64,000 bases of DNA from Armatimonadota bacterium (GCA_026003195.1 BPGU01000001.1:853398-917397); one strand, 5' to 3'; positions 1-15,805 are shown, counted from the stretch's first letter. The notes: generated by a model from the letters alone, not told the origin. Translations and numbers: made by a program.

Positions 1-1
1 A

Positions 2-790
2 GACGACCGCGCGGAGTTCTATGCCGCCTTCGCCACCGACATTGTGACTCGCATCAAGCAGGCGCTGGACGAGGGCAGGCAATTTGTGGGAATCTTCCCC
101 GTCGGTCCCATGCCTCAGTATCCTATCGCGGCGGAGATGATTAACCGTCTGCGTATCCCCATGCACCACGTGCATACCTTCAACATGGACGAATACGCCG
201 ACCAGGACGGCAACACCGCTCCGCGCGATTGGGAAGGCTCCTTCCAGCGGGCGATGTGGGAGAGCTTCTTCCTGCGCATTGACCCCGAGCTGCGCCCACC
301 CGAGAAGCAGATTCACTTCCCCACCACCGATGTCATCAAGGACTACAGCAAGATGATTGCAGATATGGGTGGGGCGGATGTGTGCTATGGCGGCATCGGC
401 TGGTGTGGGCATATTGCCTTCTGGGAGGCGCACCTCGGCGATGAGTTCGGCGATGACCTGGAGGCGTACCAGCAGGCGGGTGCACGGCTGGTGGAACTGC
501 ATCCGATGACCATCATGCAGAACGCACTGCATTCCTTCGGCGGCGACTGGTCGTGGGTTCCGCCCAAAGCCAATACCATCGGTCCTGCGGATATTTTGGG
601 GGCGAAGCATCGCTCCTTCTGGCTGGACGGTGACCTTGGCGGCGGAGTGTCGTGGCAGAGGTTCATCGCGCGGCTGGTGGCGCACGGTCCCGTCAACACC
701 TACGTGCCCGGCAGTATCCTGCAGCTTGCCCGCACCGACTACACCCTGCTGGGCGGCGTGGCGGACAATGTGGAAATCCACATGAGCTGA
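2..790 (+). CDS. NagB-like glucosamine-6-phosphate isomerase/deaminase family protein (5' end missing)
   Basis: The reading frame is already open at the window edge, so the N-terminus lies outside; the GTG at 44 is an internal valine codon. The visible part carries the NagB-type block FNMDEYAD (catalytic Asp region) and a version of the second motif, GGIGWCGHIAFWEA, where classical enzymes have GIGxDGHIAFNEP. The Gly-His-Ile-Ala-Phe core is kept, but the Asp and Asn positions are Cys and Trp. Family members interconvert amino-sugar and keto-sugar phosphates in the cytoplasm; the altered motif means the exact substrate cannot be assigned. The oxidoreductase that follows starts 13 bases downstream with its Shine-Dalgarno sequence overlapping this stop codon, so the two are almost certainly one sugar-catabolic operon. 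Confidence 0.8.
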   Translation, partial: DDRAEFYAAFATDIVTRIKQALDEGRQFVGIFPVGPMPQYPIAAEMINRLRIPMHHVHTFNMDEYADQDGNTAPRDWEGSFQRAMWESFFLRIDPELRPPEKQIHFPTTDVIKDYSKMIADMGGADVCYGGIGWCGHIAFWEAHLGDEFGDDLEAYQQAGARLVELHPMTIMQNALHSFGGDWSWVPPKANTIGPADILGAKHRSFWLDGDLGGGVSWQRFIARLVAHGPVNTYVPGSILQLARTDYTLLGGVADNVEIHMS

Positions 791-803
791 GGAGGCGCAC
801 ACG

Positions 804-1835
804 ATGGCAGAGTACGGCGTGCTGGTTCACGGCGCGGGCTGGGTATCTACCGAGCATGTGCGCGCCTATCAACGCAACCCTTACACGGAAGTGGTCGCCA
901 TCTGCAGCCGCACCCGCGAGAGCGCGGAACGCCTGAAAGAGACTACCGGCGCAGTGAACGCGAAGATTTACACCGACTACGAACAGGCGCTGGCAGACCC
1001 GAACGTGCATCTGGTCTCCATCTGCACACCGCCTAACCTCCACCCGCGCGAGACCATTCTTGCCGCGCAGGCAGGCAAACACATCCTGATTGAAAAGGCA
1101 GTCGCCAACAGCCGCGAGGAGCTTATCGAGATGGTAAAGGCGGTGCGTAAAGCGGGCGTGAAGACGGTGGTGAGCTTCGTGTTGCACTGGAACCCGCAGT
1201 TTATGTGCCTCAAACGCCTGCTGGAGCAGAACGCCATCGGGCGCATCTTCTACGCAGAGGTGGACTACTGGCACCACATCGGTCCGCACTACCGCCAGTA
1301 CGAATGGAACGTGAAAAAGAGCGTGGCGGGCAGCTCCTTCCTGAGCGCGGGATGCCACGCGGTAGACGCCATCCGCTACTTCGTGCAGGATGAGATCGAT
1401 GAGGTGATGGCGTACTCCAACAACACCGACCCCAACTACGAATACGATACCAACGTGGTGGCGGCGGTGCGCTTCCAGGGCGGCGCGATCGGCAAATTGT
1501 CTTCTATTCTGGACTGCCGATGTCCGTATGCCTTTAACATCGACCTGCTGGGCGAGCGGGGGACCCTGCGTGACAACCGAATCTGGGCGAAAGACCTGTT
1601 GCCCGGGCAGACCGACTGGGTGACCGTGCCCACCATCCGTCCCGACAGCGGGGATGTAACGCATCACCCCTTCCACGGCGAGATAGACCATTTCGTGGAC
1701 TGTGTACGCAACAACGTAGAAAGCCACGTGAGCCTGTACGACGCAGCGAGGACGCACGAGGTCATCTACGCCATCGACGAATCGGCGGCGACGGGCAAAC
1801 CGGTGAAAGTTCGCTACGAGGCATCGGCGTTGTAG
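804..1835 (+). CDS. Gfo/Idh/MocA family oxidoreductase
   Basis: A 343-residue NAD(P)-dependent sugar dehydrogenase-type protein. An N-terminal Rossmann fold begins with VLVHGAGWVS near residue 6; the usual EKP motif is EKA (around residue 96, ILIEKAVANS); the C-terminal part is the mixed alpha/beta dimerisation domain of the family, with a YWHHIGPHYR segment near residue 155. The ATG at 804 is preceded by GAGGAGG, which overlaps the upstream stop. These enzymes oxidise or epimerise cyclic polyols and sugars, and the NagB-like neighbour suggests an amino-sugar or related substrate. The substrate itself cannot be read from the sequence. Confidence 0.9.
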   Translation: MAEYGVLVHGAGWVSTEHVRAYQRNPYTEVVAICSRTRESAERLKETTGAVNAKIYTDYEQALADPNVHLVSICTPPNLHPRETILAAQAGKHILIEKAVANSREELIEMVKAVRKAGVKTVVSFVLHWNPQFMCLKRLLEQNAIGRIFYAEVDYWHHIGPHYRQYEWNVKKSVAGSSFLSAGCHAVDAIRYFVQDEIDEVMAYSNNTDPNYEYDTNVVAAVRFQGGAIGKLSSILDCRCPYAFNIDLLGERGTLRDNRIWAKDLLPGQTDWVTVPTIRPDSGDVTHHPFHGEIDHFVDCVRNNVESHVSLYDAARTHEVIYAIDESAATGKPVKVRYEASAL

Positions 1836-2351
1836 GTGGTGAGGAGGGTGGAGCAAGAGCGCGTCAATCAGGTTCTGCGCTCGCTGGCGCAACGGTATGC
1901 AGAGGTCGCGCGGCAGGTGCTGGGCGAGAACCTGACCTCCGTCGTGCTGTATGGCTCGGTGGCGCGAGGGGAAGCAACATGCGGCTCCGACATCGACCTG
2001 CTGGTTATCTGCCGCGATTTGCCCAGGGGCATCTTCGCCAGACAGAGCGTGCTGGAGCCCATCCGGGAGCAGCTGCAGCCAGAACTGGATGTTCTCTGGG
2101 CACAGGGGTGCTACTCTGATTTTTCAGAACTGCTGAAAACGGAGCAGGAAGCCCAGTACACCATTCCGCCGTACCTGGACATGACGGAGGACGCGCTCTT
2201 GCTGTATGACCGCGACGGCTTCTTCCACAACATCCTGCAACGCCTGAGAACGCGCCTTGCAGAGCTGGGAGCCCAGCGCAAGAGACTGGGCAAGCTGCGC
2301 TACTGGGACCTCAAGCCCGACTTCCAGCCCGGGGAGGTGATCGAGTTGTGA
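1836..2351 (+). CDS. MNT-type nucleotidyltransferase domain protein (HEPN partner)
   Basis: A 171-residue protein with the minimal nucleotidyltransferase signature GSVARGEATCGSDIDLLV near residue 40: a Gly-Ser motif followed by the metal-binding Asp-x-Asp. Start is uncertain: GTG at 1836 directly abuts the preceding stop, while GTG at 1848 sits immediately behind an AGGAGG run. The gene overlaps the HEPN gene by 4 bases (GTGA), the usual arrangement of MNT/HEPN toxin-antitoxin modules, in which the nucleotidyltransferase neutralises the HEPN protein, in characterised cases by AMPylation. At 171 residues it is longer than minimal antitoxins of about 100; the C-terminal 70 residues have no clear motif. 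Confidence 0.82.
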   Translation: MVRRVEQERVNQVLRSLAQRYAEVARQVLGENLTSVVLYGSVARGEATCGSDIDLLVICRDLPRGIFARQSVLEPIREQLQPELDVLWAQGCYSDFSELLKTEQEAQYTIPPYLDMTEDALLLYDRDGFFHNILQRLRTRLAELGAQRKRLGKLRYWDLKPDFQPGEVIEL

Positions 2352-2770
2352 GCAACCATACCACTGCGCGCGCCAATCTGCAAAGAGCTGGGAAGATACT
2401 GGAAGAAGCGCGTCACCTGTGCGAGCAGAGGGTGTGGAACCTGGTGGTGCGCCGTTGCCAGGAGGTGGTGGAACTGGCTCTGAAGGCAGCGCTGTGGTGG
2501 GCTGGAGTAGAGGTGCCGCGTCTCCATGACGTGGGGGCGATACTGCGACAGTATGCCGCACGATTCCCTGAACACTTTGCAGAACAGATTCCGCGAATGG
2601 CTTCTATTTCGCGTTCGTTAGGGGCGGAACGCGAACGCAGCTTCTATGGGGACGAAGTACTTCGCCTGCCCCCAGAAGAGCTGTACTTTGAGCACGACGC
2701 GCAAGATGCTCTGGAGAAGGCAGAGTTTGTCCTGCAAACCTGCCGCCAGCTTATCGAAGAGACAGAGTAA
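2348..2770 (+). CDS. HEPN domain protein (partner of the preceding nucleotidyltransferase)
   Basis: A 140-residue, mostly helical protein. Residues 5-60 match the HEPN pattern: a paired-helix start, an Arg-Arg-Cys-Gln-Glu-Val-Val stretch, a Leu-Lys-Ala-Ala-Leu helix and the LHDVG motif at about residue 58, typical of PF05168-type HEPN proteins. I do not see a clean RX4-6H ribonuclease motif of the toxic HEPN class, so nuclease activity is not supported. Co-translation with the nucleotidyltransferase by a 4-base overlap supports a two-protein module. It may be a toxin-antitoxin, or a nucleotide-modifying pair of unknown role. Confidence 0.8.
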   Translation: MSNHTTARANLQRAGKILEEARHLCEQRVWNLVVRRCQEVVELALKAALWWAGVEVPRLHDVGAILRQYAARFPEHFAEQIPRMASISRSLGAERERSFYGDEVLRLPPEELYFEHDAQDALEKAEFVLQTCRQLIEETE

Positions 2771-2966
2771 CATGAGGGAGGTCTTTTCCATGCGTGTTTT
2801 AGCGGTAGGTGCACATCCAGACGATATCGAGATTCTGTGCGCGGGCAAGCTGCTGCGCTACCGGCAGCAGGGGCATTTCGCGCTGTGCTGTTTGGGGCGT
2901 TACTTGAAAAGCCTTTCAGTTTATGCTATGGTACGCCTGAATGGAGATAGCGTGGCAATAGGGTGA
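2770..2966 (+). pseudogene. 5' fragment of a duplicated PIG-L deacetylase gene, internally deleted
   Basis: From about 2774 to 2873 this repeats the ribosome-binding region and first codons of the intact PIG-L gene at 3776 with about five mismatches in one hundred bases. The ATG is at 2790, and the family motif AHPDDIEILCAG is intact. The copy then jumps from the first to the second of two direct repeats (AGCAGGGGCA, at 3852 and 3894 in the intact gene), so 42 bases are missing in frame. Similarity ends about 12 bases later. The frame continues without family similarity to the stop at 2964. It cannot encode the enzyme. Confidence 0.85.
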
Positions 2967-2971
2967 GGCGT

Positions 2972-3208
2972 ATGCACAAGCAGTGGATTGTTTCCGACCC
3001 AAAGATAATGATGGGCAAACCGGTCATCGCTGGCACGCGGATTACGGTGGAACTCATTCTGGAGAAGCTGGCGGAGGGTGAAAGTGTAGAACAAATCCTG
3101 GAGGCGCATCCCCAACTGACTCGTGAAGCGGTTCTCGCGGCGATAGCGTATGCTCGTGACGTGCTGCGTGCCGATGTGGTTTATCCTCTTACAGAGACCG
3201 TTGCATGA
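2972..3208 (+). CDS. DUF433-type antitoxin
   Basis: A 78-residue protein with the DUF433 hallmarks: DPKIMMGKPVIAGTRITVE near residues 8-26, then the AEGESVEQILEAHPQL helix-turn-helix-like segment. ATG at 2972 is preferred over GTG at 2963 because GGTGAGG lies just upstream at suitable spacing. It overlaps the next gene by 4 bases (ATGA). DUF433 proteins are the usual antitoxin-side partners of DUF5615 PIN-like proteins and bind DNA or their toxin. The module sits between a broken and an intact copy of the PIG-L gene, which suggests mobility or a local duplication. Confidence 0.88.
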   Translation: MHKQWIVSDPKIMMGKPVIAGTRITVELILEKLAEGESVEQILEAHPQLTREAVLAAIAYARDVLRADVVYPLTETVA

Positions 3209-3558
3209 ACTTACTGGCTGATGAAAGTGTAGACCGCCCTATCGTGGAGCGTCTGAGGGAAGACGGACATCATGTCGTATCCGTCGCAGAGGTAGCACCT
3301 GGCGTGGATGACCATACTGTGCTCCATATGGCGAACCGGGAACCTGCTTTGCTGCTGACAGCTGATAAGGACTTTGGGGAGTTGGTCTACCGCTTGCGAC
3401 TGCATACGTATGGTGTGGTGCTGGTGCGTCTCTCAGGAGTGCCACTAGCGCGAAAAGCAGAGATTGTCTCAGAAGCTATGAGAAAGCACCAGGCGGAGAT
3501 GGTTCGTGCCTTTACCGTAATCACTGCCAGTATGGTTCGCATACGACGTGGGGATTGA
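3205..3558 (+). CDS. DUF5615 PIN-like domain protein (putative toxin)
   Basis: A 117-residue protein typical of DUF5615: it opens MNLLADESVDRPIVERL with the first conserved acidic residue, then has the LLLTADKDFGELVYR motif near residues 48-62, where PIN-fold nucleases hold their metal-binding Asp cluster. A late conserved Leu-Val-Arg-Leu strand follows. By family it is a probable RNA-cleaving toxin paired with the upstream DUF433 protein; the coding regions overlap by ATGA. Activity is inferred from family membership only. Confidence 0.87.
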   Translation: MNLLADESVDRPIVERLREDGHHVVSVAEVAPGVDDHTVLHMANREPALLLTADKDFGELVYRLRLHTYGVVLVRLSGVPLARKAEIVSEAMRKHQAEMVRAFTVITASMVRIRRGD

Positions 3559-3647
3559 GGGGGAGGATCGTGTGGATCTTGGTGGGCATATCAGGTCAGA
3601 TTCTTTCCCTCGCTTGGGGGGGTGAGGCTCTTGCTACTAAACTCTTC

Positions 3648-3734
3648 GTGTCCTTTGGAGGGCGTGCCAGCACCCGAAGTCATCCCCTTGCTGATGTGTG
3701 TCATTGCGAGCAACGCAGGAGCAAAGCAATCTCC
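3648..3734 (+). repeat. Dispersed palindromic repeat, degenerate copy
   Basis: The stretch contains GCCAGCACCCGAAG at about 3666 and GTCATTGCGAG at 3700-3710 followed by a GCAAAGCAATCTCC tail. The same blocks appear, in other order and orientation, in the repeat at 33055-33136. The copy here is imperfect and lies in the 217-base non-coding gap between the PIN-like gene and PIG-L. It resembles REP/MITE-like elements starting GTCATTGCGAG that occur in many bacterial genomes. Confidence 0.6.
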
Positions 3735-3775
3735 AACTGCGTCACTCTTGACATAACTCAAGGGAGGTCTTTTCT

Positions 3776-4477
3776 ATGCGTGTTTTAGCGGTAGGCGCAC
3801 ATCCAGACGACATCGAGATTCTGTGCGCGGGCACGCTGCTGCGCTACCGGCAGCAGGGGCACGAGGTGGTCCTCTGCGTCGCCACCAACGGCGAGCAGGG
3901 GCATTTCGTGCTGAAACCGGAAGAGCTGCGTCAAATCCGCCATCAGGAGGCGAAAGCGTCCGCCGACCTGTGCGGGGCGGAGCTCATCTGGATGGACATC
4001 CCCGACGAGTTCATCTATCACGACCACGCCACGCGCATGGCATTTATCGAGATGGTGCGCCAGGCGCGCCCTGATGTGGTCATCACGCACAACCCGGACG
4101 ACTATCACATGGACCATCGCGTGGTATCGGAACTGGTGTTCGTGAGCACCTTCATGGCGACGCTGCCCCATGTGGAGACCGAAAGCCCACCTACGCCGCG
4201 TCTGCCCGTTATCTACTACATGGACAGCCTGGCGGGAGCGAGCTTCATCCCCACCGAATACGTGGACATCACATCCGTGATCGAGCAGAAAATCGCCATG
4301 ATGGAATGCCATCAAAGCCAGGTGAAGTGGCTGAAGGAGCACGATAACATCGACATTACCGACTTCATCCGCGTGATGGGACGCTTTCGTGGGCTGAGCG
4401 CGGGCGTGATGTACGCTGAAGGTTTCCGCAGGCTGGAGGCATGGGGCAGGGGCACCGTGACGCGGCTGCTACCGTGA
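3776..4477 (+). CDS. PIG-L/LmbE-family N-acetyl-sugar deacetylase
   Basis: A 233-residue zinc hydrolase of the PIG-L family. It has AHPDDIEILCAGT at residues 8-20 (His and Asp-Asp metal/catalytic motif) and HNPDDYHMDHRVV near residues 103-115 (the second metal-binding His). AGGGAGG lies 8 bases before the ATG. Relatives deacetylate GlcNAc-linked substrates, for example in bacillithiol or mycothiol synthesis, or in polysaccharide and antibiotic tailoring; no thiol-biosynthesis partner is adjacent, so the substrate is open. A broken 5' copy lies at 2770-2966. Confidence 0.9.
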   Translation: MRVLAVGAHPDDIEILCAGTLLRYRQQGHEVVLCVATNGEQGHFVLKPEELRQIRHQEAKASADLCGAELIWMDIPDEFIYHDHATRMAFIEMVRQARPDVVITHNPDDYHMDHRVVSELVFVSTFMATLPHVETESPPTPRLPVIYYMDSLAGASFIPTEYVDITSVIEQKIAMMECHQSQVKWLKEHDNIDITDFIRVMGRFRGLSAGVMYAEGFRRLEAWGRGTVTRLLP

Positions 4478-4520
4478 GCCGATGGACAACAATGTCGACA
4501 GACGTGGCTTGCGATCCCTT

Positions 4521-4595
4521 ATTGTCGCGATAGCGTATGTCCGTGATGTTCTACGCACCGATGTAGTGTACCGCATTGTGGTTTGTCCATCGTGA
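4521..4595 (+). pseudogene. Remnant of a second DUF433 antitoxin gene (C-terminal end)
   Basis: A 24-codon open stretch ends in TGA at 4593-4595. It translates to AIAYVRDVLRTDVVY in its core, which matches AIAYARDVLRADVVY at the C-terminus of the intact DUF433 protein in 13 of 15 residues. At DNA level the two are only about 78 per cent identical over 46 bases, with most differences silent, so this copy diverged while under selection and then lost its 5' part. No start codon or antitoxin core remains. No PIN-like partner remains downstream. Confidence 0.7.
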
Positions 4596-4664
4596 TGCTT
4601 ACCATCCCTTTGGAGAGGCTCCTGCCGAGCCATCGGTATCATTGCTCTATCTACCTAACCCCCT

Positions 4665-4723
4665 GTCCCCCTTCCCTGTGAGGGAAGGGGGACAACAGCA
4701 CCCCTCTCCTCGTAGGAGAGGGG
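4665..4723. terminator. Two tandem perfect hairpins (terminator or dispersed repeat)
   Basis: Positions 4665-4677 pair perfectly with 4681-4693 (13-bp stem, 3-base loop), and 4701-4710 pair with 4714-4723 (10-bp stem, 3-base loop). No T-run follows on either strand, so classical intrinsic termination is uncertain. The pyrimidine-rich CCCCTCTCCT/AGGAGAGGGG composition resembles dispersed intergenic repeats. They lie between the PIG-L gene and an opposing PEP-CTERM remnant. Confidence 0.55.
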
Positions 4724-4736
4724 CTGGGGGAGAGGT

Positions 4737-5039
4737 CTAACCCCTCTTGCGCCGTACCAGCCCGCCGACTGCTGCCAGCCCTAAGCCGAACAGCGCCATC
4801 GTCGCAGGCTCGGGGACGACTTCGAAGTTGGTAGTAACCAGCGGCCCCTGTCGAATTGATAGGAAATGTTGTCTACCGCTTTGCAGAAGGACCCGCAAAA
4901 TAATTCGGTTGCGAGCGGTGAAAGGGGCGGTGCTTGTTTTCCATTTGCTTTTTCTGCGTGAAACGGGCAAGCAGGAAACGCTACCTCCTGTGCCGAAATC
5001 ACCGGCGGGCTGATGTGCGAAAAAGGGAAACCCCTTCAC
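4737..5039 (-). pseudogene. PEP-CTERM sorting-signal remnant
   Basis: The last 27 residues on the minus strand form a complete PEP-CTERM tripartite tail: VVPEPATMALFGLGL, a short hydrophobic segment, then Val-Arg-Arg-Lys-Arg-Gly and a TAG stop at 4737. The preceding 70 residues have no signal peptide and no recognisable secreted domain, and a neighbouring frame is also open. This looks like the tail of a once-larger exported protein whose body has been deleted or scrambled. The intact example at 56001 carries nearly the same motif (VVPEPATMSLF). Confidence 0.65.
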
Positions 5040-5097
5040 ACACGCCTCAGGTTATGTTATCATAAGGTAAAGCCAAACGCCGGAGAAGGTGACGAAC

Positions 5098-8000
5098 ATG
5101 AAGGTGCGTTTCATGCGGGCGTGGATGCCCCTGCTGTGGTGGGCAATACTCGCTGCGGCGGCATGGAGCCAGCCCTCGGTGGCCCCGGAAGTCGCAGATG
5201 CCTATAAGCGTCTGGCAGGAGCGGTCTCTTCCGAAAGAATCCGCCAGACGGTATATCAGCTCTCTTCCTATCCTTCTCGTGTCGCTGGCTATCCGGGCTC
5301 GGAAGAGGCGGCGAAGTGGATCGAGGAGCAGTTCCGCCAGATCGGACTGCAGCGGGTGAGTACGGAGGAATTCACGGTCACCGTTCCCGTGGACAAAGGG
5401 GCGAAACTGCGCGTGGGCAACCGCGAGTTCCCGCTCTACGCGATGTGGCCCAACCTGGTGCGCACCTCGCAACTGCCACCGGAGGGCATCACGGGTCCCA
5501 TCATCTACGCACGCGACGGCAAACTGCCCAACTTCAGCGGGAAGAACGTGGAAGGCAGTATCGTGCTGGTGGACTTCAACTGTGGCACCGACTGGCTAAA
5601 CGCACCGCGCCTGGGCGCCAAGGCGGTTATCTTCATCGAACCGAACGCCACCATGCGCGGCGAAGCGGAGTCCAAGTTTATCGGCATTCCGGTCACCGTG
5701 CCACGATTTTATATCCGCAAGAGCGACGCTGCGCCACTGCTTGCGCTTACCGCCGAACAGCGCGAGGTAAAAGGCACTCTGTTCTGTAACATGCCCTGGG
5801 AGCGGCGTACCACGCGCAATATTATAGGCTGGCTGGAAGGCACGGACCCCAAGTTCAAGAACCAGATTATCGTCATCTCCGCATACTACGACGCCATGTC
5901 CGTCGTGCCTGCGCTCGCGCCGGGCGCGGAGAGCGCATGTGGTCTTGCCGGGCTGCTGGAGGTCGCTCGCGCCTACAAAGCCAATCCGCCCAAACGCACC
6001 ATCCTGTTCATCGCCACCAGCGCGCACTTCCTCTCCCTGCAGGGGGTGCGCGAGTGGATGGACCGGCACATGTTCGAACTGGAGCGACCGAACGTCGGTC
6101 AGCGTCTGGTGAACTCGCTGATAGGGGCGGTCGGTATCAAACCGAAGCAGAAGAAACTGCTGGACATCTACCTCTTCCTGTCGCTGGACCTTTCCAGCAA
6201 GTCGCGGCAGGTTGGGCTGTTCTATAAAGGCTATTTCTACGACATGCGCGAGGACGTGCAGAACCGCTTCTCGGACACCGCGCGCATCTGCCGTGAGAAC
6301 GCCGAGAAGGTGGGTTATATCCTTGGCTTTGACCACAAGAAGGCGTTCGCCGATGGCGTGAACCCGGTGGAGGGCAAGAACTGGCGCAACTACCTGCCGG
6401 GCAAGTTCGCCTTCGACGCGGAGGTGGTCACGCTGTCGGGCGCGAACGGCATGACCTTCTGCACTACCGACGACTCGCGCGCGCTGGTGGACACGCCTTT
6501 CGACACGCCGGAGAAGGTGAACGTGGCGAACGTGGCTCGCCAGACGAAGCTGATTGCCTGTTTGCTGTACCACATCTTGAACGATACCAACGCGCCGGGC
6601 GAACTGAATGTACCCCGCTTCCCCATCTCCGAACCGGGCAACTTCCAGACGATGGGCTTGCAGGGCGGTTTCGGCACGCTGGACGGACAGGTGGTGTTGT
6701 TCGACCCGCGCAAGAGCTTCATCCCCAACCAGCCAGTGCCCGGTTCGCTGGCGGTAGTACGCCATGCGACCAAGACCTTCATGGGCGTGCGCGGCAACAT
6801 GATTCAGATGGTCGGCGAGGACGCCTACTTCCGTTTCCCCGGCATCCCGCCCATCACCGCCTACGGCTGGAACAGGATGACCAACATTGCCGCCTACCGT
6901 CTGAACGAGCAAACGGGTGAGATCGAGTTCGCCCCCGACCTGGGCGTGACGGGAGCATCCGAATACGCCATCGACTTCACTATGTCCACTGGACGCAAGA
7001 CCACTCGTATCGTGGTTTTCCGGTGCGTACCTACTTCTATTTATGACCTGGTAGACCAGCAGGCGCTGCGTGCGCTGACCACGATGGATGTGCTGGACGG
7101 GGAGACCAACGGTCAGCCGCGCATGTACGGTTACACGCTGGCGACGGTGCAGGACTACTCGTTGACCTCCTACGTGGAGGACGTGGCGGTGGTGTTTGCG
7201 CAGCCGGGCTCGCGCATCAAGATAATGATGGGCGTGGGACCAGGTGCCACACGCTTCCTGCTGATTAACTCCACCAAGCAAAAACCGGAAGGCGAGGGCT
7301 ATCTGGTCGCAGGTAGCGCAGAAGAGGCGCAGGGCTTTGTGGTACGCACCTTCTCCGAGCGCGAGCTGACCGAGCGCGACCTGATTGCGCGTGGAGGAAC
7401 CATCGCCAACACCGCCCTGCGCGTAGCAGAAGACATGTGGAACCTGGACGAGTGGCGGATGAGCCGTCTGCGCCAGTTCCGCATCATCAACGAAGGTCTG
7501 GAGCAACTACATGGGCTCGCGAAGGAACACCTGGACAAGGCGCGCGCTGCGCTGGAGCGCAGGGACTACGCCACCTTCGACTCCTACGCCCGCGCGGCAT
7601 GGGGCTACGAAGCGCGCGCCTATCCCGACGTGCAAGCGACCGCCAACGACGTGGTGCGCGGCGTCATTTTCTATATGTTCCTGCTGATGCCTTTTGCCTA
7701 CTTCATGGAGCGGTTGCTGTTCGGCTTCAGCGACCTCAAGCGCCAGCTGTTGACGGCGTTTATCATCTTCCTGCTGATATTCTTCGCCTTCAGCCAGATA
7801 CACCCGGCATTCCAGCTGGTGAGTAACTTGTTTGTGGTGCTGCTGGCGTTCATCATGCTCGCGCTTTCGTTGCTGGTGACCTTCATGGTGGCGGGCAAGT
7901 TCGAGGAGCAACTCAAGCAGCTGAACCGCCAGATTAGCGGCGTCCACCGTGCGGACATCGGGCGGGTGAGCGTGGCGTTTGCTGCGTTCAACCTGGGCGT

Positions 8001-9724
8001 GTCCAACATGCGCCGGCGCAAGGCGCGTACGCTGCTGACCAGCATCACGCTCATCCTGCTTACCTTTATCGTGCTGTCGTTCACCTCTATCGTGAACGTG
8101 TTGCGCTTTAACAAAGTTCCCGCGCCGGGCACTCCGCTGTACAACGGCATCATGATTCGCACCGCACTGTGGGAGCCTCTGCAAGAACCGGCTTACCGCC
8201 TGCTGCACGATGAGTTCCGCGACAGGGCGGTGGCGCCTCGTTCGTGGTTCTTCGGTGCGGCGTTCGGTGAGCAATCGTTCCTCACCCTGCGACGCGGCGA
8301 CCGCCAGTACGATGCCAAAGCGGCGGTAGGCTTGTCTCCCGCAGAAGCAGACGTCACCCAGCCGCAGAAGGCGCTGTTGGCAGGACGGTGGTTCCGCGAG
8401 GGCGACCGCTATGTGGCGATCGTGCCCACGGCTATCGCGCAGCAACTGCGCATCGAGCCTGAGGATGTGGGCAAGGCGAAGGTGAACTTTAGTGGTGTGG
8501 ACTACACGGTCATTGGTATTCTGGATAGCCAGAGGTTCAAGCAGATTACTGACCTGGACCGTGAACCGCTGACACCGGTGGACTTTATCCTGATGCAGAA
8601 GATGCAGCGGCAAGGAGCAGGTGCTGGTGAGGCAGGTTTCCGTGAATACGTGCACCTCGAACCGGATGCCTGTTTCTATATCCCCTACAAGACGCTGATG
8701 AACATCGGTGGAGAGATTCGGAGCATCGCCATCTCCTTCGCCACGCCCGATGAGGTGCGCGTGGTGCTGGACAAGCTGATGCCTCGCCTGGGCTTGAACA
8801 TCTACGCAGGACAGGGCGACAGAACATGGCGCTACTCCACGCTGGCAGCCACCTCAGGACGGGGTATCGAGTTCATCGTGATCCCGGTGCTGATTGCTGC
8901 GTTGATTGTGTTGCAGACGATGCTCAGCAGCGTGTACGAGCGCGTGAAGGAGATACATATCTTCTCCTCGCTGGGCTTGTCGCCGACGCACATCGGTTTG
9001 CTGTTCCTGGCAGAGGCGATGGTGTACGCCATCATCGGCTCGGTGACGGGGGTACTTCCTGGGGCAGCTGAGTGCGAAGGTGATTGTCTGGCTGAACGTG
9101 CCGGGGTTGTATCTGAACTTCTCGTCGATGGCGGCGGTAGTCTCCACACTCATTGTGGTGGCGACGGTGCTGGGGTCTACCATCTATCCCGCACGCAAAG
9201 CATCGGAGGTGGCGACGCCCGCTCTAGAACGCACCTGGCGCGTGCCGGAACCCGAAGGCGATGTGTGGCGTATCCCGATGCCCTTCTCGGTAACGCGCGT
9301 GCAGGCAGCGGGCTTGAACTCGTTCCTCAGCGAATGGCTGCAGGCATACGAGGAGTACTCCATTGGCGACTTCGTGACGCAGGGGGTGAAAGCGGAGGAG
9401 TACCAGCACGACGGCGGTACGGCATACCGCATTACCTGCACCGCATGGGTGGCACCGTTTGACCTGGGTGTGAGCCAGAACGTGGAGATAGAAGCCACCC
9501 CGACGGATATGCCCGATGTGTACGATCTGCACCTGACGCTGACACGCCTCAGCGGTGACATCGCCAACTGGAAGCGCGTGAATCGTCGCTTCCTGAACAC
9601 CCTGCGCAAGCAATTCCTGATCTGGCGGACGCTGCGCCAGGAGGAGCGCGAGCGCTACCTGCAAAAGACCGACGGACGACAGGCTGCGGGCGTGCCCAGT
9701 ACGCAACCGGCGACGGGAGCGTAG
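5098..9724 (+). CDS. Giant membrane protein: M28-peptidase-like domain fused to FtsX-type permease; one-base frameshift at 9048-9052
   Basis: ATG 5098 is chosen over GTG 5089 because GGAGAAGG lies 8 bases upstream. A signal peptide (about residues 1-25) is followed by an M28-like fold with a protease-associated insert (about 100-190). The metal-site region near residue 260 reads ISAYYDAMSVV and PGAESACGLAGLLEVAR, where active enzymes have HxD and GxxDNxSG; the later Glu-Glu motif is Ala-His, so zinc hydrolysis looks lost. Four helices lie near 850-950, an FtsX core starts at about 976 (RRKARTLLTSITL), then an extracytoplasmic domain and the last three helices from about 1258. A run of five G at 9048-9052 breaks the frame; removing one G joins GSVTG to YFLGQLSAK and extends the protein to the TAG before 9725, about 1541 residues. 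No ATPase gene is adjacent. Confidence 0.8.
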
Positions 9725-9760
9725 GCTGTAAGGAGGACATGCGCTCCGGGAGGAGATGAG

Positions 9761-10243
9761 ATGGGCTACTATGTGATTGCACAGGATGGCAACCGCTACG
9801 GTCCAGCGGACATCGCTACCCTGCAGCAGTGGGTCAGGGAAGGGCGTATTGCGCCCAACACGACGCTGGAGGACGAGTACACCGGCACGCAGATCCGGGC
9901 GAGTCTGCTGCCGGAGCTGAGCCATCTGTTTCCGAGCCAGGCGGTGCCGCCCGGCGATGCTTACCGGCAACCTCCTGCGATGACTGGCGGAGGACCAAGC
10001 AGCAGAGCCACTACTGCGCTGGTGCTGGGGATAGTGGGGTTGCTGTGCTGTGGGTTGCTGGGTATTCCGGCGATTATTCTCGGAAAGCAAGAGATGAACC
10101 TCATCGATCAGGGTTTGGCTCCGGTAGAGGGGCGCGGTTTGGCACAGGCGGGGTTTATTCTGGGCATTGTGTCGCTGGTGCTCTGGGTGTTAGGTATGCT
10201 GGCGTGGTTTGCAGCCTTCAGATCGATGTGGCGGTTGCAGTGA
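9761..10243 (+). CDS. GYF_2 and DUF4190 domain membrane protein
   Basis: A 160-residue protein. Residues 1-55 form a GYF_2-like domain (YYVIAQDGNRYGPADIATL), residues 65-85 are a Gly/Pro/Ser linker, and residues 85-157 contain two membrane helices in the DUF4190 pattern (ALVLGIVGLLCCGLLGIPAI and GFILGIVSLVLWVLGM). A GGGAGGAG ribosome-binding site precedes ATG 9761. It starts 36 bases after the M28/FtsX gene in the same direction and precedes a DUF2752 gene, so the three probably form one membrane-protein operon. GYF-type modules bind proline-rich peptides; no partner is known here. Confidence 0.85.
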   Translation: MGYYVIAQDGNRYGPADIATLQQWVREGRIAPNTTLEDEYTGTQIRASLLPELSHLFPSQAVPPGDAYRQPPAMTGGGPSSRATTALVLGIVGLLCCGLLGIPAIILGKQEMNLIDQGLAPVEGRGLAQAGFILGIVSLVLWVLGMLAWFAAFRSMWRLQ

Positions 10244-10261
10244 GGTGGGCTGAGGCCAGGG

Positions 10262-10627
10262 ATGTGGCGGGCATTGCTCCTGGTGGCGATGTTGGGAATG
10301 ATGGGAGCAGCGGCATATTTGCTGCAACCGTATGTGGAACATGCGCCGGTCTTGTGTACCTTTCGAGTGCTCACGGGTAAACCGTGTCCGACATGCGGCA
10401 TGACGCGGGCGACCTGTGCGCTGGTGCATGGCGAGTGGGCGAAAGCAATAAGCTACCATCCGCTGGTCCTACCGTTCTGGGTAGCTCTGATAGCGATGTT
10501 GTGGGCGCACTTTGTGCTGCCGTTGTCTCCACGCACGGGACGCTGGCGTAGGCTGAGCCTGTGGATGTTTCTGGGTGTGGTGGCAGCTGGTTTGCTGTTA
10601 CGGGTGACCGAATGGGTGAGAGGGTAA
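10262..10627 (+). CDS. DUF2752 membrane protein
   Basis: A 121-residue protein with the DUF2752 signature TGKPCPTCGMTRATCALVHG near residues 40-60 and the following HPLVLPFW helix start. There are three predicted membrane helices (about 4-20, 65-87 and 98-115). The paired cysteines of the CPTCGMTR motif are conserved. DUF2752 proteins very often follow GYF_2/DUF4190 proteins, as here (18-base gap). The function is unknown. Confidence 0.88.
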   Translation: MWRALLLVAMLGMMGAAAYLLQPYVEHAPVLCTFRVLTGKPCPTCGMTRATCALVHGEWAKAISYHPLVLPFWVALIAMLWAHFVLPLSPRTGRWRRLSLWMFLGVVAAGLLLRVTEWVRG

Positions 10628-10693
10628 ACTTGTCCTGTTCAACAAGCGATACGCTGAGTGCGGCACACAAAACTCGAAGGAGGGTTCAAACCG

Positions 10694-12694
10694 TTGGCAA
10701 TCCGGGATGAAATCGCCTTAGCGCGTGAAACGGCGGAAACACAATCTATAGAAGCGGGGCAACGTTTTGAAGAAGGGTTTACCGTCCGCACGGCGATTGG
10801 TACCCTGTTTATCGCCTTCATCATGTTGCCCGGCGCGCTGTACCTCGGGCTGGTTGCCGGACAGGGTCTGGGTCCCGCGGCACAGTGGGTCACCATCGTG
10901 CTGTTCGCCGAGGTCGCTCGCCGTTCGTTCGCGCCTCTGAAAAAGCAGGAGATTTACATCCTGTTCTACGTGGCGTCTTCGCTAACGGTGCTGATGTCCG
11001 GTGGAATCGGTCTGTCGGGCGGTCCGTTTGGCTGGCTGATATGGAACCAGTATTTCATCCAGTCGCCTCCCGCGACGCCGATAGCCGACCAGATACCGAA
11101 GTGGGCGGTGCCTCGCCCGGATAGCCTGGCGATTCTGCATCGCACCTTTTTCCATCGTGACTGGCTCATCCCGATTGTGCTGCTGATTACCAACGAAATC
11201 TTCGGGCGCATGATGTGGATGGGGCTGGGCTATACGCTCTTCCGCATTACCAATGATGTGGAGCGTCTCCCCTTCCCGATGGCGCCGGTTGCCGCTTCGG
11301 GCGCGACCGCTCTGGCGGAAGCAGGACGCAAAGAGGAGTCCTGGCGCTGGCGTGTGTTCTCCACCGGCGCGGTCATCGGGCTGGTATACGGCTTCTTCTA
11401 CCTGGCGATACCCATCTTCACCAGCGTGCTGTTCGGCAAGGCGTTCATGCTCATCCCGATCCCCTTCTTCGACCTGGTGCCCAACACCGAACATATTCTG
11501 CCAGCCGCACTCACCGGCTTGTCGGGCGACCTGGGGCTGGTGCTCACGGGCTTTGTCATCCCCGCGCCGATTGTTATTGGTAGCGCAACCGCCAGCATCC
11601 TGTGCCAGGTGTTCACCAACCCGATTCTGCAGCGGATGGGGCTGCTTCCCGACTGGTATCCGGGCATGAGCACCATCCAGACCTCGCTCACGGTGAACAT
11701 GAACTTCTGGCTGAGCGTGGGTATCGGCGTGCAGCTGGCGGTGGCGTTCATCGGTATCGTCGCCGTTGTGCGCGTGCTCATTTTGCGCAAGCAGCTGATA
11801 GCCAATCGGGGCAGCTTCTCGCAGATTCCCGTCGGACGCGGCGACAAAGCGAGCACGGTGTACATCGCCATCGGCGCGTGGCTGATTGCGACGATTGGCG
11901 TGATTACCATCGCCCATCAGCTGGTACCGGGCTTCCCGCTGTGGATATTTATCTTCTTCGGGCTGGTGTGGACGCCGATTAACTCCTACATTTCGGCGCG
12001 TATGATCGCTCTCACCGGTCAGGGCGTCAGCTTCCCCTACCTGCGCGAAGCCACCATCCTGAAGACCGGTTACGATAAGGTGGACATCTGGTATGCCCCC
12101 ATGCCTCTGGCGGACCATGGCTGGGCGGCACAGCGCTTCCGCGAGGTAGAACTGACAGGCACCCGCTTCACTAGCATCCTGTACGCCGAAGCGTTCATGC
12201 TGCCGGTGGTGCTGCTGGCGAGTTTCCTGTTCTGGGCGTTCTTCTGGCATACCAGCCAGATACCTTCCGCGCAGTATCCGTACGCGCAGAAGTTCTGGCC
12301 TCTGCATGCGCAGATGAACGCGCTCTGGCAGCAGATTAACCTGAAGGACAGCAGCACCGGACAGTGGTTGCTACGGGCATTGCGCACAGACTACATCATC
12401 GGTGGGTTCACAGGCGGACTGGCGCTGTTCGCCATCTTCTCCGCGCTGAAGCTGCCCTTGCTCTTCTACTACGGTTTCGTGGGCGGTATCGGCGCGCTAC
12501 CTCACAATACGATACCGATGCTCATTGGCACCATTTTAGGGCATCGTTACTTTGCACGGCGCTTCGGTAGCGAGCAGTGGCGGATGTGGGCGCCTGTGCT
12601 GCTGGCGGGCTTCTCCTGCGGCATGGGGCTTATCGGCATGGCGGCAATCGCCCTCGCCATCATCGGCAAATCGGTGTCGTATTTACCCTACTGA
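10694..12694 (+). CDS. Large polytopic membrane protein, oligopeptide-transporter (OPT)-like
   Basis: About 666 residues with some 14-16 hydrophobic segments, starting with VRTAIGTLFIAFIMLPGALY and ending with the helix MGLIGMAAIALAIIGKSV. A TTG start at 10694 is preferred because AAGGAGGG lies 9 bases before it; the longer frame from GTG 10658 has no ribosome-binding site. Length, helix number and segments such as RLPFPMAPVAASGATALAE suggest the OPT superfamily of proton-driven peptide or metal-chelate uptake. I cannot name a substrate. It is preceded by the GYF/DUF2752 genes but may be separately transcribed. Confidence 0.72.
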   Translation: MAIRDEIALARETAETQSIEAGQRFEEGFTVRTAIGTLFIAFIMLPGALYLGLVAGQGLGPAAQWVTIVLFAEVARRSFAPLKKQEIYILFYVASSLTVLMSGGIGLSGGPFGWLIWNQYFIQSPPATPIADQIPKWAVPRPDSLAILHRTFFHRDWLIPIVLLITNEIFGRMMWMGLGYTLFRITNDVERLPFPMAPVAASGATALAEAGRKEESWRWRVFSTGAVIGLVYGFFYLAIPIFTSVLFGKAFMLIPIPFFDLVPNTEHILPAALTGLSGDLGLVLTGFVIPAPIVIGSATASILCQVFTNPILQRMGLLPDWYPGMSTIQTSLTVNMNFWLSVGIGVQLAVAFIGIVAVVRVLILRKQLIANRGSFSQIPVGRGDKASTVYIAIGAWLIATIGVITIAHQLVPGFPLWIFIFFGLVWTPINSYISARMIALTGQGVSFPYLREATILKTGYDKVDIWYAPMPLADHGWAAQRFREVELTGTRFTSILYAEAFMLPVVLLASFLFWAFFWHTSQIPSAQYPYAQKFWPLHAQMNALWQQINLKDSSTGQWLLRALRTDYIIGGFTGGLALFAIFSALKLPLLFYYGFVGGIGALPHNTIPMLIGTILGHRYFARRFGSEQWRMWAPVLLAGFSCGMGLIGMAAIALAIIGKSVSYLPY

Positions 12695-12742
12695 TTGTGA
12701 TAGAATAGAGGTGGGGCACAGAAGTGCTGTGGAGGAGTTTCG

Positions 12743-12961
12743 ATGAGTGAGGTAATCCAGATGTATTTCGGCTGGCAGGAAGCGTTACCGATTATCGTCA
12801 TCATCGTCGTGCTGTTCGGAGCACGCCGACTGCCGGAGCTGGCACGCTCGGTAGGCGAGAGCCTGCGCGAGTTCAAAAAAGCCACCTCCGAGGTGCTGGA
12901 TGACGAACCGGCGCATCCCGCACCGGCAAAAACCGAGAAGAGCACCGAGCAGCAGTCGTAG
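12743..12961 (+). CDS. tatA: Twin-arginine translocase subunit TatA/TatE
   Basis: A 72-residue protein with the family architecture: one N-terminal membrane helix (ALPIIVIIVVLFGARRLPEL), the FGARRLPELARSVG hinge, an amphipathic helix (GESLREFKKATSEV) and an acidic/proline tail. TatA oligomers form the pore for folded proteins with twin-arginine signal peptides. A client is visible in this window: the oxidoreductase ending at 35222 carries a Tat signal. GGAGG lies 8 bases before the ATG. No tatC is adjacent. Confidence 0.92.
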   Translation: MSEVIQMYFGWQEALPIIVIIVVLFGARRLPELARSVGESLREFKKATSEVLDDEPAHPAPAKTEKSTEQQS

Positions 12962-12982
12962 GCGACGAGGACTGAGCATAGC

Positions 12983-13885
12983 GTGAAATACGGGCTGGCA
13001 CCGGAGCAGATAGTGGGATGGCAGGGAGTCAGCCTGCGGGTACCTCCCGATTGGAGCGTAACCGGATTTCAGGGCGATGCGAAGGAGGGGTATTTGCGCA
13101 TCGATTCGCCGGGCAGTCTGGTCGCTGAAGTGCGCTGGGCGCAGGCGAGGAAGAAAGTAGACGTTCGGAAGCGACTGGATAACTACCTGAATCTGGTGGA
13201 ACGCCAGGCGAAGAAGCGCAAAGTGCCTTTTACCGGACGCATCAAGCCATCGGAAGACTGGAAAGACGCGCTGGAGTTCAACTACCGCGCCGACCGCAAG
13301 GTGCGCGGATTCATCCGACAATGTCCGCAGTGCCGTCGAGTGGTCATTGCGCAGGTGAGCGGTGACAGGGACGATGCAGTGGTGAACGTCGCCAACCAGC
13401 TGCTGGACACCCTGCAGGACCACTCCGAAGACGGTTGGTGGACGTGGGCGCTGTTGGGACTGGTAGTCCGACTGCCGGAGCGGTTCGCTCTGGTGAAGTC
13501 GCAGGTGATGTCGGGTTACCTGATGCTGCAGTTCCGCCACCGCTATACGGAGGTGTGTGTGGAGCGGTGGGGACTGGCGGATGTGACCTTGAAACGCTGG
13601 ACGCTGGAAGAGTGGGCGCTGCAGGCAACGGAGTGGAAGCGCTTCAGGGCGCAGCATACGCTGAGCGAAGTGGACGGGCATCCCGCTGTGCAGCTGAAGG
13701 GGTTTCGCCGCGCGCCAACGGTGTGGTTGCGCCGAAAGGTCGAGCGATGGGTTCTGCGCCGACCGGAGGGGATAGTGGGTGTGGTATGGCACTGTGAGCC
13801 AGGCAACCGCATCTACTCGGTGCGCGTGGAGCGGGGGACAGAGGAGCTGCTACAGCAGGTTGTGCAGTCTGTGCAGTGCCATTGA
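12983..13885 (+). CDS. Two-repeat DcrB/PsbP-like protein of unknown function
   Basis: A 300-residue protein (GTG start at 12983) without a signal peptide. It consists of two similar halves: residues 16-50 (GVSLRVPPDWSVTG then GYLRID and EVRWAQA) align with residues 157-195 (GLVVRLPERFALVK then GYLMLQ and CVERWGLA), and each half ends in a long amphipathic helix. The pattern resembles DcrB/PsbP-like folds, but I do not recognise the family. A CPQC motif occurs near residue 114 in the first half only. It begins 21 bases after tatA and ends 19 bases before the PqqD-like gene, in the same direction as the permease and ATPase genes, so a role with that transporter is likely. Confidence 0.7.
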   Translation: MKYGLAPEQIVGWQGVSLRVPPDWSVTGFQGDAKEGYLRIDSPGSLVAEVRWAQARKKVDVRKRLDNYLNLVERQAKKRKVPFTGRIKPSEDWKDALEFNYRADRKVRGFIRQCPQCRRVVIAQVSGDRDDAVVNVANQLLDTLQDHSEDGWWTWALLGLVVRLPERFALVKSQVMSGYLMLQFRHRYTEVCVERWGLADVTLKRWTLEEWALQATEWKRFRAQHTLSEVDGHPAVQLKGFRRAPTVWLRRKVERWVLRRPEGIVGVVWHCEPGNRIYSVRVERGTEELLQQVVQSVQCH

Positions 13886-13904
13886 AACCGTGCTGTAGAA
13901 AAGA

Positions 13905-14321
13905 ATGGGCGTTCGAGAGTTTGTTGGCAAATTCATCCCGGCGGTAAAGCCGAAGCCGGTATTATCCCGGCAGGAGGCGCTAACCGCCATTCCGATACGC
14001 AACCCGCTGCTGGAGTGGGAGCGTACCGGGGACGGGGAGTTGTTGCTCAAAGTGCCGGTCGAGCAGCGTAGCCTGCTCATACGGTGGGCGATACTGGCAT
14101 TTCGTCTACCGCCGGTGCGCCACATTCAGCTGGATGAGATAGGAGCGGCTGTGTGGGAACTGTGCGACGGCGAGCATACCGTGGAGTCCATTGTGCAACA
14201 GATGTGTAAGCGCACGCGCATGAGCCGTCGCGAGGTGGAAGCATCGGTGAGCATGTTTTTGAAGATGTTAGCAGACCGCAGACTGGTGGCGTTCAAACGG
14301 GGAGGAAAGAAGAAGGCATGA
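13905..14321 (+). CDS. PqqD-family peptide-binding-like protein
   Basis: A 138-residue protein. Residues 70-130 match the PqqD winged-helix pattern: IQLDEIGAAVWELCDGEHTV, a second helix ESIVQQMCKRTRMSRREVEA and a last strand ADRRLVAFKRG. PqqD-like proteins normally present a precursor peptide to a radical-SAM enzyme, but no radical-SAM or precursor gene is present. Instead this gene overlaps an FtsX permease gene by 4 bases (ATGA), and an ABC ATPase gene follows. A role as cytoplasmic adaptor for export is a guess. Confidence 0.8.
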   Translation: MGVREFVGKFIPAVKPKPVLSRQEALTAIPIRNPLLEWERTGDGELLLKVPVEQRSLLIRWAILAFRLPPVRHIQLDEIGAAVWELCDGEHTVESIVQQMCKRTRMSRREVEASVSMFLKMLADRRLVAFKRGGKKKA

Positions 14322-14926
14322 GGAAAGAGGGACGTCAGGTAGAACGCTTGCAACTACCGTTTCGGGTGGCTTTCCACATCAGTATGCAAAGCGTCCGTAT
14401 CCGCTTCTGGCGCTCAGTGATTACCGCAGCGGGCACTGTGTTGGGTATTGCATTCCTCGTCTCCGTGTTGACGGCGATGATGATTCAACGCAACTCGGGG
14501 GCGATTACCGACCCCTCCGAAAAGTACCGCATGACGTGGCTGGTGATTATGAGCCTGCTGGTCTGTCTGGTGGGTATCACGAACGCGATGTTGATGTCCG
14601 TCACCGAGCGATACAAGGAGATCGGCACGATGAAGTGTCTGGGCGCGTATGACATCTTCATCGTGGAGCTGTTCTTTATCGAGTCGGCTCTGGTAGGCCT
14701 TATTGCCTCGGTTATCGGATGGTTTCTGGGGGTCTTTGCGGTGGTGCTCATCAAGCTGTTCAGCGAAGGCTTCAAGGTGTTCAGCTGGATTTCTCCGGGG
14801 GAGGTGTTTCTGTATCTCCTCCTCTCTATAGTCATCGGCACACTGCTTTCAGTGATTGCCACCATTATCCCTGCACAGGTGGCGGCGCGGATGCCCGCAG
14901 CTGCCGCACTGCGCGTGGAAGTCTAA
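14318..14926 (+). CDS. Minimal FtsX-family ABC permease
   Basis: A 202-residue permease with four membrane helices: about 31-53 (AGTVLGIAFLVSVLTAMMI), 70-90, 112-145 and 160-185. The FtsX signature is present after helix 2 (SVTERYKEIGTMKCLGAYD), along with the C-terminal AARMPAAAALRVEV tail. The segment between helices 1 and 2 is only about 20 residues, so the large periplasmic domain of MacB/LolC-type permeases is missing. With the ATPase gene 15 bases downstream it forms a complete ABC pair; FtsX-type systems move lipoproteins or peptides or act mechanically on periplasmic partners. Confidence 0.88.
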   Translation: MRKEGRQVERLQLPFRVAFHISMQSVRIRFWRSVITAAGTVLGIAFLVSVLTAMMIQRNSGAITDPSEKYRMTWLVIMSLLVCLVGITNAMLMSVTERYKEIGTMKCLGAYDIFIVELFFIESALVGLIASVIGWFLGVFAVVLIKLFSEGFKVFSWISPGEVFLYLLLSIVIGTLLSVIATIIPAQVAARMPAAAALRVEV

Positions 14927-14941
14927 CAAGGGGGTGCATCG

Positions 14942-15715
14942 ATGGCGGTTCAGCCACAGACCAATCAAACTGCTGCTACCGGCACCGAGTATATCGTGCG
15001 GTGCAAAGACGTGGTGAAAGAGTACATGATGGGCACGCAGGTGGTGCGTGCGCTCAACGGCGTTACGCTGGATATTGTGCGCGGAGAGTACCTCTCTATC
15101 ATGGGACCCTCCGGCTCTGGCAAGTCCACGCTGTTTAACATGATTGGTGGACTGGACAAACCCACCAGCGGTTCGGTGTTCATTAACGACGTGGACATGG
15201 CGCAGCTGGATGCCCAGGAGCTGGCGTTCTTGCGCTGCCGCACCATCGGCTATATCTTCCAGACGTTCAACCTGATCCCGGTGATGACCGCGCTGGAGAA
15301 CGTGATGCTGCCGATGATTTTCGGTGGCTTGTCTACCGATGAAGCCATTGATCGGGGCATCGAACTGCTGAAGCTGGTGGGGTTGGGCGAGCGACTGCAC
15401 CACAAACCCAACGAGCTGTCCGGTGGTCAGCAGCAGCGTGTGGCGATTGCACGTGCCCTGGCGAACAATCCGCAAATCATTCTGGCGGACGAGCCAACGG
15501 GCAACCTGGACCTGCGCACGGGTAAAGAGATTATCGAACTGCTGCGCCAGCTGAACAAAGAGCAGGGCGTGACCATTATTTCCGCCACGCACGACCTCAA
15601 GATGGTGGACGTCTCCGACCGCATCGTGTGGATCCGCGACGGACGCATCGACCGCGTAGAAGAGCGCGCCGCCGTCGAGGTGCGTGTCGGCGACGTGGAA
15701 GGCACCCCCGGATAG
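14942..15715 (+). CDS. ABC transporter ATPase, LolD/MacB type
   Basis: A 257-residue ATPase: Walker A GPSGSGKST near residue 57, Q-loop FQTFNLIPVMTALENV, signature LSGGQQQRVAIARAL near 160, Walker B IILADEPTGNLD near 180 and the switch His in SATHDLKMV. The set matches the LolD/MacB/FtsE subfamily that energises FtsX-fold permeases. The ATG at 14942 follows the permease stop by 15 bases, with a weak AAGGGGG site. It is presumably the motor for the minimal permease and the upstream PqqD-like and two-repeat proteins. Confidence 0.92.
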   Translation: MAVQPQTNQTAATGTEYIVRCKDVVKEYMMGTQVVRALNGVTLDIVRGEYLSIMGPSGSGKSTLFNMIGGLDKPTSGSVFINDVDMAQLDAQELAFLRCRTIGYIFQTFNLIPVMTALENVMLPMIFGGLSTDEAIDRGIELLKLVGLGERLHHKPNELSGGQQQRVAIARALANNPQIILADEPTGNLDLRTGKEIIELLRQLNKEQGVTIISATHDLKMVDVSDRIVWIRDGRIDRVEERAAVEVRVGDVEGTPG

Positions 15716-15805
15716 CCACGACGGCACGATTCACGGGCAGGAGGGGCAGGGCACTGCCGGTGCGGTGTCCTGCCTGTGTTTGCCTCTGTGGTCAGGAGAG
15801 AGAGG

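Follow-up and report, generated by a model that had tools for sequence, protein, structure and literature searches.

ATP-binding cassette (ABC) transporters of type VII, the mechanotransmission class that includes MacB, LolCDE, FtsEX and YbbAP, perform mechanical work in the periplasm, the purpose of which is set by their partner proteins. One example is YbbAP-TesA of E. coli, in which the type VII transporter is proposed to hand hydrophobic compounds over to a hydrolase (PMC12646458). Proteins with the fold of M28 peptidases can also serve membrane machines: nicalin belongs to the translocon of the endoplasmic reticulum (PMC7505659), and nicastrin and GPAA1 are known as membrane-linked M28-fold pseudoenzymes or atypical enzymes (PMC7522609). 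A review of metallopeptidase pseudoenzymes does not mention M28 (PMC11266112). Here we analyze a stretch of 64,000 nucleotides (hereafter the window) from an Armatimonadota bacterium (GCA_026003195.1 BPGU01000001.1:853398-917397), in which an M28-fold domain, best read as a pseudopeptidase, is built into an FtsX-type permease itself. The fusion protein contains, in order, a signal peptide, an M28-fold ectodomain with a PA insert, three transmembrane (TM) helices, an FtsX core with a MacB-like periplasmic domain, and a previously unreported C-terminal domain.

In our view the product of this locus is likely to be a heteromeric type VII ABC complex, one whose ectodomain is a pseudopeptidase and whose partner in the membrane is OPT-like. 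The fusion provides one FtsX half with a MacB-like periplasmic domain, together with an M28-fold ectodomain that lacks the M28 catalytic residues. A further FtsX half, of minimal form, and an intact LolD-type ATPase are encoded in the same run of genes, and these, with three more genes, are present or absent as a set. In the literature we searched, no description of the fusion or of the six-gene set was found. The parts are known families; their union and their co-occurrence across the phylum appear to be new.

YbbAP-TesA is the nearest working analogy. It shares with this locus an FtsX-class permease and a LolD-like ATPase with a hydrolase-fold periplasmic partner, as well as a large periplasmic domain ahead of the second FtsX half. 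However, TesA is a separate, active esterase of another fold, and YbbP has 10 TM helices and two MacB-like domains, whereas the fusion has seven TM helices plus a signal peptide, one MacB-like domain and the M28-like domain in the same chain. No OPT-like, PqqD or second FtsX partner is reported for YbbAP-TesA. LolCDE and MacAB share the FtsX core with a MacB-like periplasmic domain and the LolD-like ATPase, and LolCDE likewise has two different FtsX subunits. In contrast to these, the fusion adds the M28-like ectodomain, three TM helices and the C-terminal domain, and the second FtsX protein of the window has no periplasmic domain. Scored on the frame-shifted frame of the window, the fusion falls below the NCBIfam equivalog cut-offs for LolCE (23.9 of 362.45 bits) and MacB (14.2 of 966).

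For the ectodomain, M28-fold proteins that serve membrane machines, such as nicalin, are the nearest analogues. Nicalin, nicastrin, transferrin receptor 1 and GPAA1 combine an M28 fold and an altered metal site with attachment to membrane machinery, but they are eukaryotic and are not ABC permeases; to our knowledge, none of them is joined to an FtsX domain. The secreted M28 aminopeptidases (BSAP/YwaD, the Aneurinibacillus and Aeromonas enzymes, and L087 from the same genome) share the fold and, in BSAP-type members, the PA insert. Unlike the fusion, they all keep the HxD, DN, EE, D and H residues.

The M28-like/FtsX fusion protein

The fusion gene and its parts are as follows:

5035..5063, plus strand: sigma-70-like promoter match, TTCACA-17-TATCAT, 10/12, directly upstream of the first gene, a candidate by its position
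5098..9724, plus strand: M28-like/FtsX fusion gene, 1541 residues in congeners; 1-nucleotide frameshift here, with frame 1 to 9462 and the C-terminus in frame 2
5098..5172, plus strand: putative signal peptide, residues 1-25, read from the sequence (basic n-region, hydrophobic core, A-x-S cleavage-like site)
5170..6627, plus strand: M28-fold ectodomain, residues 25-510, with the PA insert at approximately 100-235 (Pfam, profile search, structure model)
7651..7884, plus strand: three TM helices ahead of the FtsX core, residues 852-870, 884-902 and 911-929 (hydropathy of the homologue L009)
8044..9184, plus strand: FtsX core, with TM helix 983-1001, MacB-like periplasmic domain 1002-1247 and TM helices 1259-1277, 1299-1317 and 1344-1362, the last in frame 2 (Pfam, hydropathy, fold)
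9048..9052, plus strand: GGGGG run with one extra G relative to congeners, a frameshift private to this assembly
9257..9634, plus strand: conserved C-terminal domain, residues approximately 1387-1512 (approximately 125 residues; conservation, model)

Sigma-70-like promoter sites numbered 3, against 4.8 expected by chance.

The initial annotation, made from the sequence alone, described a single fusion of about 1540 residues. Its domains are real and lie in one frame by Pfam, with the PA domain seen in a homologue, but the frame is not continuous here owing to the extra G at 9048-9052. Frame 1 from 5098 stops at 9462, within out-of-frame sequence, and the true C-terminus lies in the next frame, with its stop at 9724. 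At the break the window reads GTGACGGGGGTACTTC and the congeners read GTGACAGGCTACTTC (congener codons GTG ACA GGC TAC). A whole-genome search found the fusion open across this point in nine congeners, eight of them with 1550-1553 codons and one (G004) cut at a contig end. Hence the G run carries either a mutation private to this genome or an error of assembly; a programmed frameshift was ruled out, since the congeners are in frame and open there. Because the frame is broken in the window, we studied the protein through an intact homologue (L009, HRbin16), which is 97% identical and 1541 residues long.

In one frame of the fusion, Pfam finds Peptidase_M28 at residues 241-323 (E-value 2e-8), MacB_PCD at 978-1170 (7.7e-8) and FtsX at 1259-1323 (2.6e-10), all above their cut-offs. 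The PA domain is seen in the homologue L017 (PF02225, E-value 6e-5). We modelled residues 25-1000, with a mean predicted local distance difference test (pLDDT) score of 69.6 and values mostly of 75-96 in the M28 core. The modelled M28 part superposes on the Aeromonas aminopeptidase 1amp with a Z-score of 26.9 and a root mean square deviation (rmsd) of 2.6 over 264 residues, and this, together with the PF04389 match above cut-off, places it in the M28 fold; such a superposition on an M28 enzyme was the check that had been proposed. It also superposes on BSAP, GCPII, glutaminyl cyclase and transferrin receptor 1. By sequence, the closest M28 proteins are secreted aminopeptidases (profile E-value 2e-19 to 2ek8). 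Nicalin and transferrin receptor 1 turned up in the sequence search, the latter by fold as well; nicastrin and nicalin were not among the fold matches listed, which is no evidence against kinship.

Ahead of the FtsX core four helices had been counted, where hydropathy gives three. The FtsX C-terminal domain scores 40.8 bits against a cut-off of 25.5 (55.4 in an intact congener), and the MacB-like periplasmic core that follows the first FtsX TM helix scores 33.3 bits against 27. The modelled FtsX core matches the structures of HrtB, MacB and LolE with Z-scores of 14-15. The model of this half is weak (pLDDT 58.9, predicted template modelling score 0.38), so the FtsX assignment rests on the Pfam matches. 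The coupling loop carries the pattern ER..EI......G (residues 1281-1293), which does not vary among 26 homologues and aligns with YtrF. It is tempting to speculate that a first FtsX half has decayed to the three extra TM helices, with the signal helix and M28 domain standing in place of YbbP TM1 and the first periplasmic domain; given the poor model of the FtsX half, we leave this as speculation. The C-terminal domain is probably cytosolic. Its model has fair local confidence and is weakly START/Bet v1-like (Z-score 8.8, rmsd 3.1 over 119 residues, a borderline match).

A rewritten metal site

The positions that correspond to the M28 metal site are:

5884..5886, plus strand: Tyr263 at the zinc-binding His of HxD (tally and alignment)
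5929..5931, plus strand: Glu278 at the bridging Asp; the loop is one residue shorter and the register uncertain by one
6025..6030, plus strand: His310-Phe311 at the catalytic Glu and the ligand Glu (tally and alignment)
6187..6189, plus strand: Asp364, equivalent of the ligand Asp179 of the Aeromonas aminopeptidase (tally and alignment)
6490..6492, plus strand: Asp465 at the second zinc-binding His (tally and alignment)

We set the register by a profile-profile alignment (probability 100) to L087, the intact M28 enzyme of the same genome, which carries the motifs AHMDH, GADDNASG, SGEEIG, NMDMIG and YHTPADK. We then tallied residues over 67 fusion sequences, divergent second and third copies included. 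The column of His97 (Aeromonas numbering here and below) holds Tyr in 53 sequences, Phe in 6, Ser in 2, Asn in 2 and Trp in 1; His occurs in 0 of 64, in agreement with the Tyr read at this position in the initial annotation. Asp99, the Asp of HxD, is retained in 64 of 64. At the bridging Asp117 the counts are Glu 60, Asp 4 and Ser 1 (n = 65), in a register ambiguous by one because the DN loop is one residue short. The alignment places SAHF opposite SGEE, so that Glu-Glu becomes His-Phe in the fusion; Ala-His, as read before, was one residue out of register. The catalytic Glu151 is His in all 65 sequences, while the ligand Glu152 is Phe in 46 of 65, His in 6, Cys in 6 and other residues in the rest. 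The third Asp ligand, Asp179, is retained in 66 of 66, and the column of His256, the second zinc His, contains Asp in 65 and Asn in 2 (n = 67).

No canonical M28 catalytic set occurs among the 67 fusion sequences, and a search of 18 extra regions, with copies down to 34% identity, likewise gave no intact HxD/DN/EE. Judged by these residues, no member of the fusion family is a canonical M28 peptidase. Since the ectodomain has the M28 fold and every homologue lacks the M28 peptidase residues, a non-peptidase, binding role is its best reading, as the initial annotation had supposed. Its description of the site as eroded does not fit. The family retains the Asp of HxD, the third Asp ligand and an acidic residue in the DN loop, and by sequence alignment four potentially metal-binding side chains are left (Glu278, His310, Asp364 and Asp465). 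Because the replacements are almost fixed, the alignment argues for a site that is rewritten and held, for a ligand pocket, another metal or structure, and that is not freely drifting.

The gene row and its co-inheritance

The assigned genes from 5098 to 17922 are all co-directional. Downstream of the fusion they are:

9761..10243, plus strand: GYF_2/DUF4190 membrane protein, at this place only in the window's genus
10262..10627, plus strand: DUF2752 membrane protein, at this place only in the window's genus
10658..12694, plus strand: 678-residue multi-pass membrane protein, distantly OPT-like, the most constant neighbour of the fusion
12983..13885, plus strand: 300-residue soluble protein with no family match, conserved in the gene row
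13905..14321, plus strand: PqqD-like protein (PF05402, E-value 3.9e-14)
14318..14926, plus strand: small FtsX permease of 202 amino acids without a periplasmic domain, with a 4-nucleotide overlap with the PqqD gene end
14942..15715, plus strand: LolD-type ABC ATPase (Walker A GPSGSGKST, signature LSGGQQQR, Walker B ILADEPTG)

The GYF_2/DUF4190 and DUF2752 genes stand between the fusion and the 678-residue gene. They follow the fusion as the initial annotation noted, but they do so only in the window's genus, and the conserved neighbour is the OPT-like protein. This protein matches PF03169 in the homologue L016 (E-value 1.6e-5, 24.3 bits against a cut-off of 25.8); the window protein gives no match. 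That no ATPase is adjacent holds for the next gene only: an intact LolD-type ATPase lies 5.2 kb 3' of the fusion in the same run, just behind the small FtsX permease. Past the ATPase, a class I aminotransferase and a DAHP synthase (15776-17922, plus strand) extend the run, with a terminator-like hairpin at 17912. In one lineage (L035:8085-9968, L036:17542-19410, L037:16924-18252) the small FtsX protein has approximately 200-400 extra residues between TM1 and TM2, where the window version has almost none.

In most loci that are long enough, the order is fusion, OPT-like protein, 300-residue protein, PqqD, small FtsX and ATPase. In 29 of 51 genomes a single contig carries both the fusion and the ATPase, at a distance of 0.25-6.7 kb. 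In G017 and G031, from two other families, the ATPase lies directly upstream, 386 and 253 nucleotides from the aligned part of the fusion. Of 61 Armatimonadota genomes, 53 have the fusion, 52 each the OPT-like protein, the small FtsX and PqqD, 51 the ATPase and 49 the 300-residue protein. The small FtsX count is of orthologues and leaves out G011, whose single match (6.6e-13) is a distant FtsX. All six genes are missing from the same eight genomes (G011, G020, G027, G033, G038, G040, G046 and G060). Isolated misses occur in G008 and G055, which are incomplete (80% and 61%), and, for the fast-evolving 300-residue protein, also in G032 and G056. For fusion against ATPase, a Fisher test that ignores phylogeny gives p = 1.5e-8. 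The set was probably lost or gained more than once, because G020 and G056 belong to the same genus yet differ in gene set, and G060 shares a family with G013 and G051.

Several genomes (G031, G036, G044, G017, G058 and G059) have two or three diverged fusion copies, several OPT-like copies and one ATPase orthologue. One scan of 84,980 species gave 30 loci, and those with a taxon title are all Armatimonadetes or Chthonomonads; the scan reaches close relatives only, and a wider spread is possible. On plasmids, the relatives were plain M28 peptidases only.

A candidate envelope machine and its alternatives

The ATPase of the run looks cognate for the fusion on genetic grounds (same run, linkage in 29 of 51 genomes, joint presence and absence). 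In the type VII complex that we favour, two copies of the ATPase would dock on the coupling loops of the paired FtsX halves; the helix bundle, driven by ATP, would then move and relay its motion to the periplasmic domains. The M28-like cleft would then grip and release a ligand uncut, most likely a peptide or a polypeptide end, held possibly around a non-zinc metal at Glu278, His310, Asp364 and Asp465. The OPT-like protein may be the partner that receives or supplies this ligand, with the ectodomain filling the place held elsewhere by separate periplasmic partners. The net result could be membrane extraction, export, import or signalling. We infer a peptide ligand from three features combined: an M28 fold, a partner that resembles OPT transporters and a PqqD-like protein. 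A fuller picture, which we offer tentatively and with more doubt than belief, is a six-part, phylum-wide envelope machine in which the type VII motor works an M28 pseudopeptidase claw, peptides are bound through the rewritten metal site and passed to or from the OPT-like protein, and the PqqD-like protein handles the peptide on the cytosolic side.

Several observations weigh against the complex. The fusion and the ATPase lie on different contigs in 22 of 51 genomes, some of these being contig ends and others real separation, and several genomes pair two or three fusion copies with a single ATPase. Although M28-like and OPT-like parts suggest peptides, the OPT membership of the 678-residue partner is below the curated cut-off. 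Finally, should the signal peptide be a helix that is not cleaved, the fusion could form an eight-TM pseudo-dimer by itself, like YbbP, and might do without the small FtsX.

Could the ectodomain instead be an enzyme? It would have a re-patterned metal centre (Glu278, His310, Asp364 and Asp465, with His as general base), and the ABC part would extract or present substrate as YbbAP does for TesA. Four residues nearly invariant in 65-67 sequences, down to 34% identity, seem more than a plain binding domain needs; the title of PDB 2anp describes an E151H aminopeptidase mutant as functional, and YbbAP-TesA is a type VII transporter able to serve a periplasmic hydrolase (PMC12646458). We nevertheless regard an enzyme as unlikely: both zinc sites lose ligands, with Glu152 mostly Phe and otherwise variable, His97 never His and His256 replaced by Asp. 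Another arrangement would place two machines in one operon, the small FtsX, ATPase and PqqD forming one ABC system and the fusion with the OPT-like protein another. The latter two do stay adjacent while the PqqD-FtsX-ATPase trio is elsewhere (e.g., G012, G026, G035, G044, G050), but all the genes are absent from the same eight genomes and together in most loci, and a minimal FtsX that has no periplasmic domain can act on the periplasm only through a partner; we give this arrangement a rather poor chance.

The initial annotation had offered either a mechanical sensor standing by itself or a permease powered by an unlinked ATPase rather than by one of its own. This is hard to reconcile with the gene run, in which an ATPase that looks cognate and another FtsX permease are found and co-occur with the fusion. 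It also sits badly with the conserved order in most loci, with the two other families in which the ATPase immediately precedes the fusion, and with the joint presence and absence in 61 genomes. The immediate neighbours are indeed not ATPases, and the 22 genomes with separate contigs are in keeping with an unlinked motor; on balance we consider it very improbable.

The region upstream of the fusion has features of its own. On the minus strand, an open reading frame (ORF) of 100 residues at 4737-5039 ends in the PEP-CTERM sorting signal VVPEPATMALFGLGLAAVGGLVRRKRG (TIGR02595, 28.3 bits against a cut-off of 16) and has no convincing body; it has the look of a tail left over from an exosortase-dependent surface protein. 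At 1836-3558 (plus strand), an MntA-like nucleotidyltransferase is directly followed by a HEPN protein and then a DUF5615/PIN-like protein, an arrangement suggestive of a HEPN-MNT toxin-antitoxin pair with a PIN-type gene next to it. A short ORF at 2646-2963 (plus strand) matches only the first 27 positions of the PIG-L profile (E-value 3.6e-5), with a full PIG-L deacetylase downstream at 3776-4477 (plus strand), as if the end of a second copy had been left over.

Across most of this poorly studied phylum the six genes occur together or not at all, so the set probably has an important envelope function. That the fusion shares its gene row with the ATPase and four other partners, and that these are retained or lost jointly throughout the phylum, points to a device, driven by energy and so far undescribed, at the outer face of the inner membrane. 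The few Armatimonadota in culture would allow its function to be tested. The ectodomain, with its fixed and rewritten metal site, is also a good case in which to ask when a "dead" enzyme has really changed its ligand.

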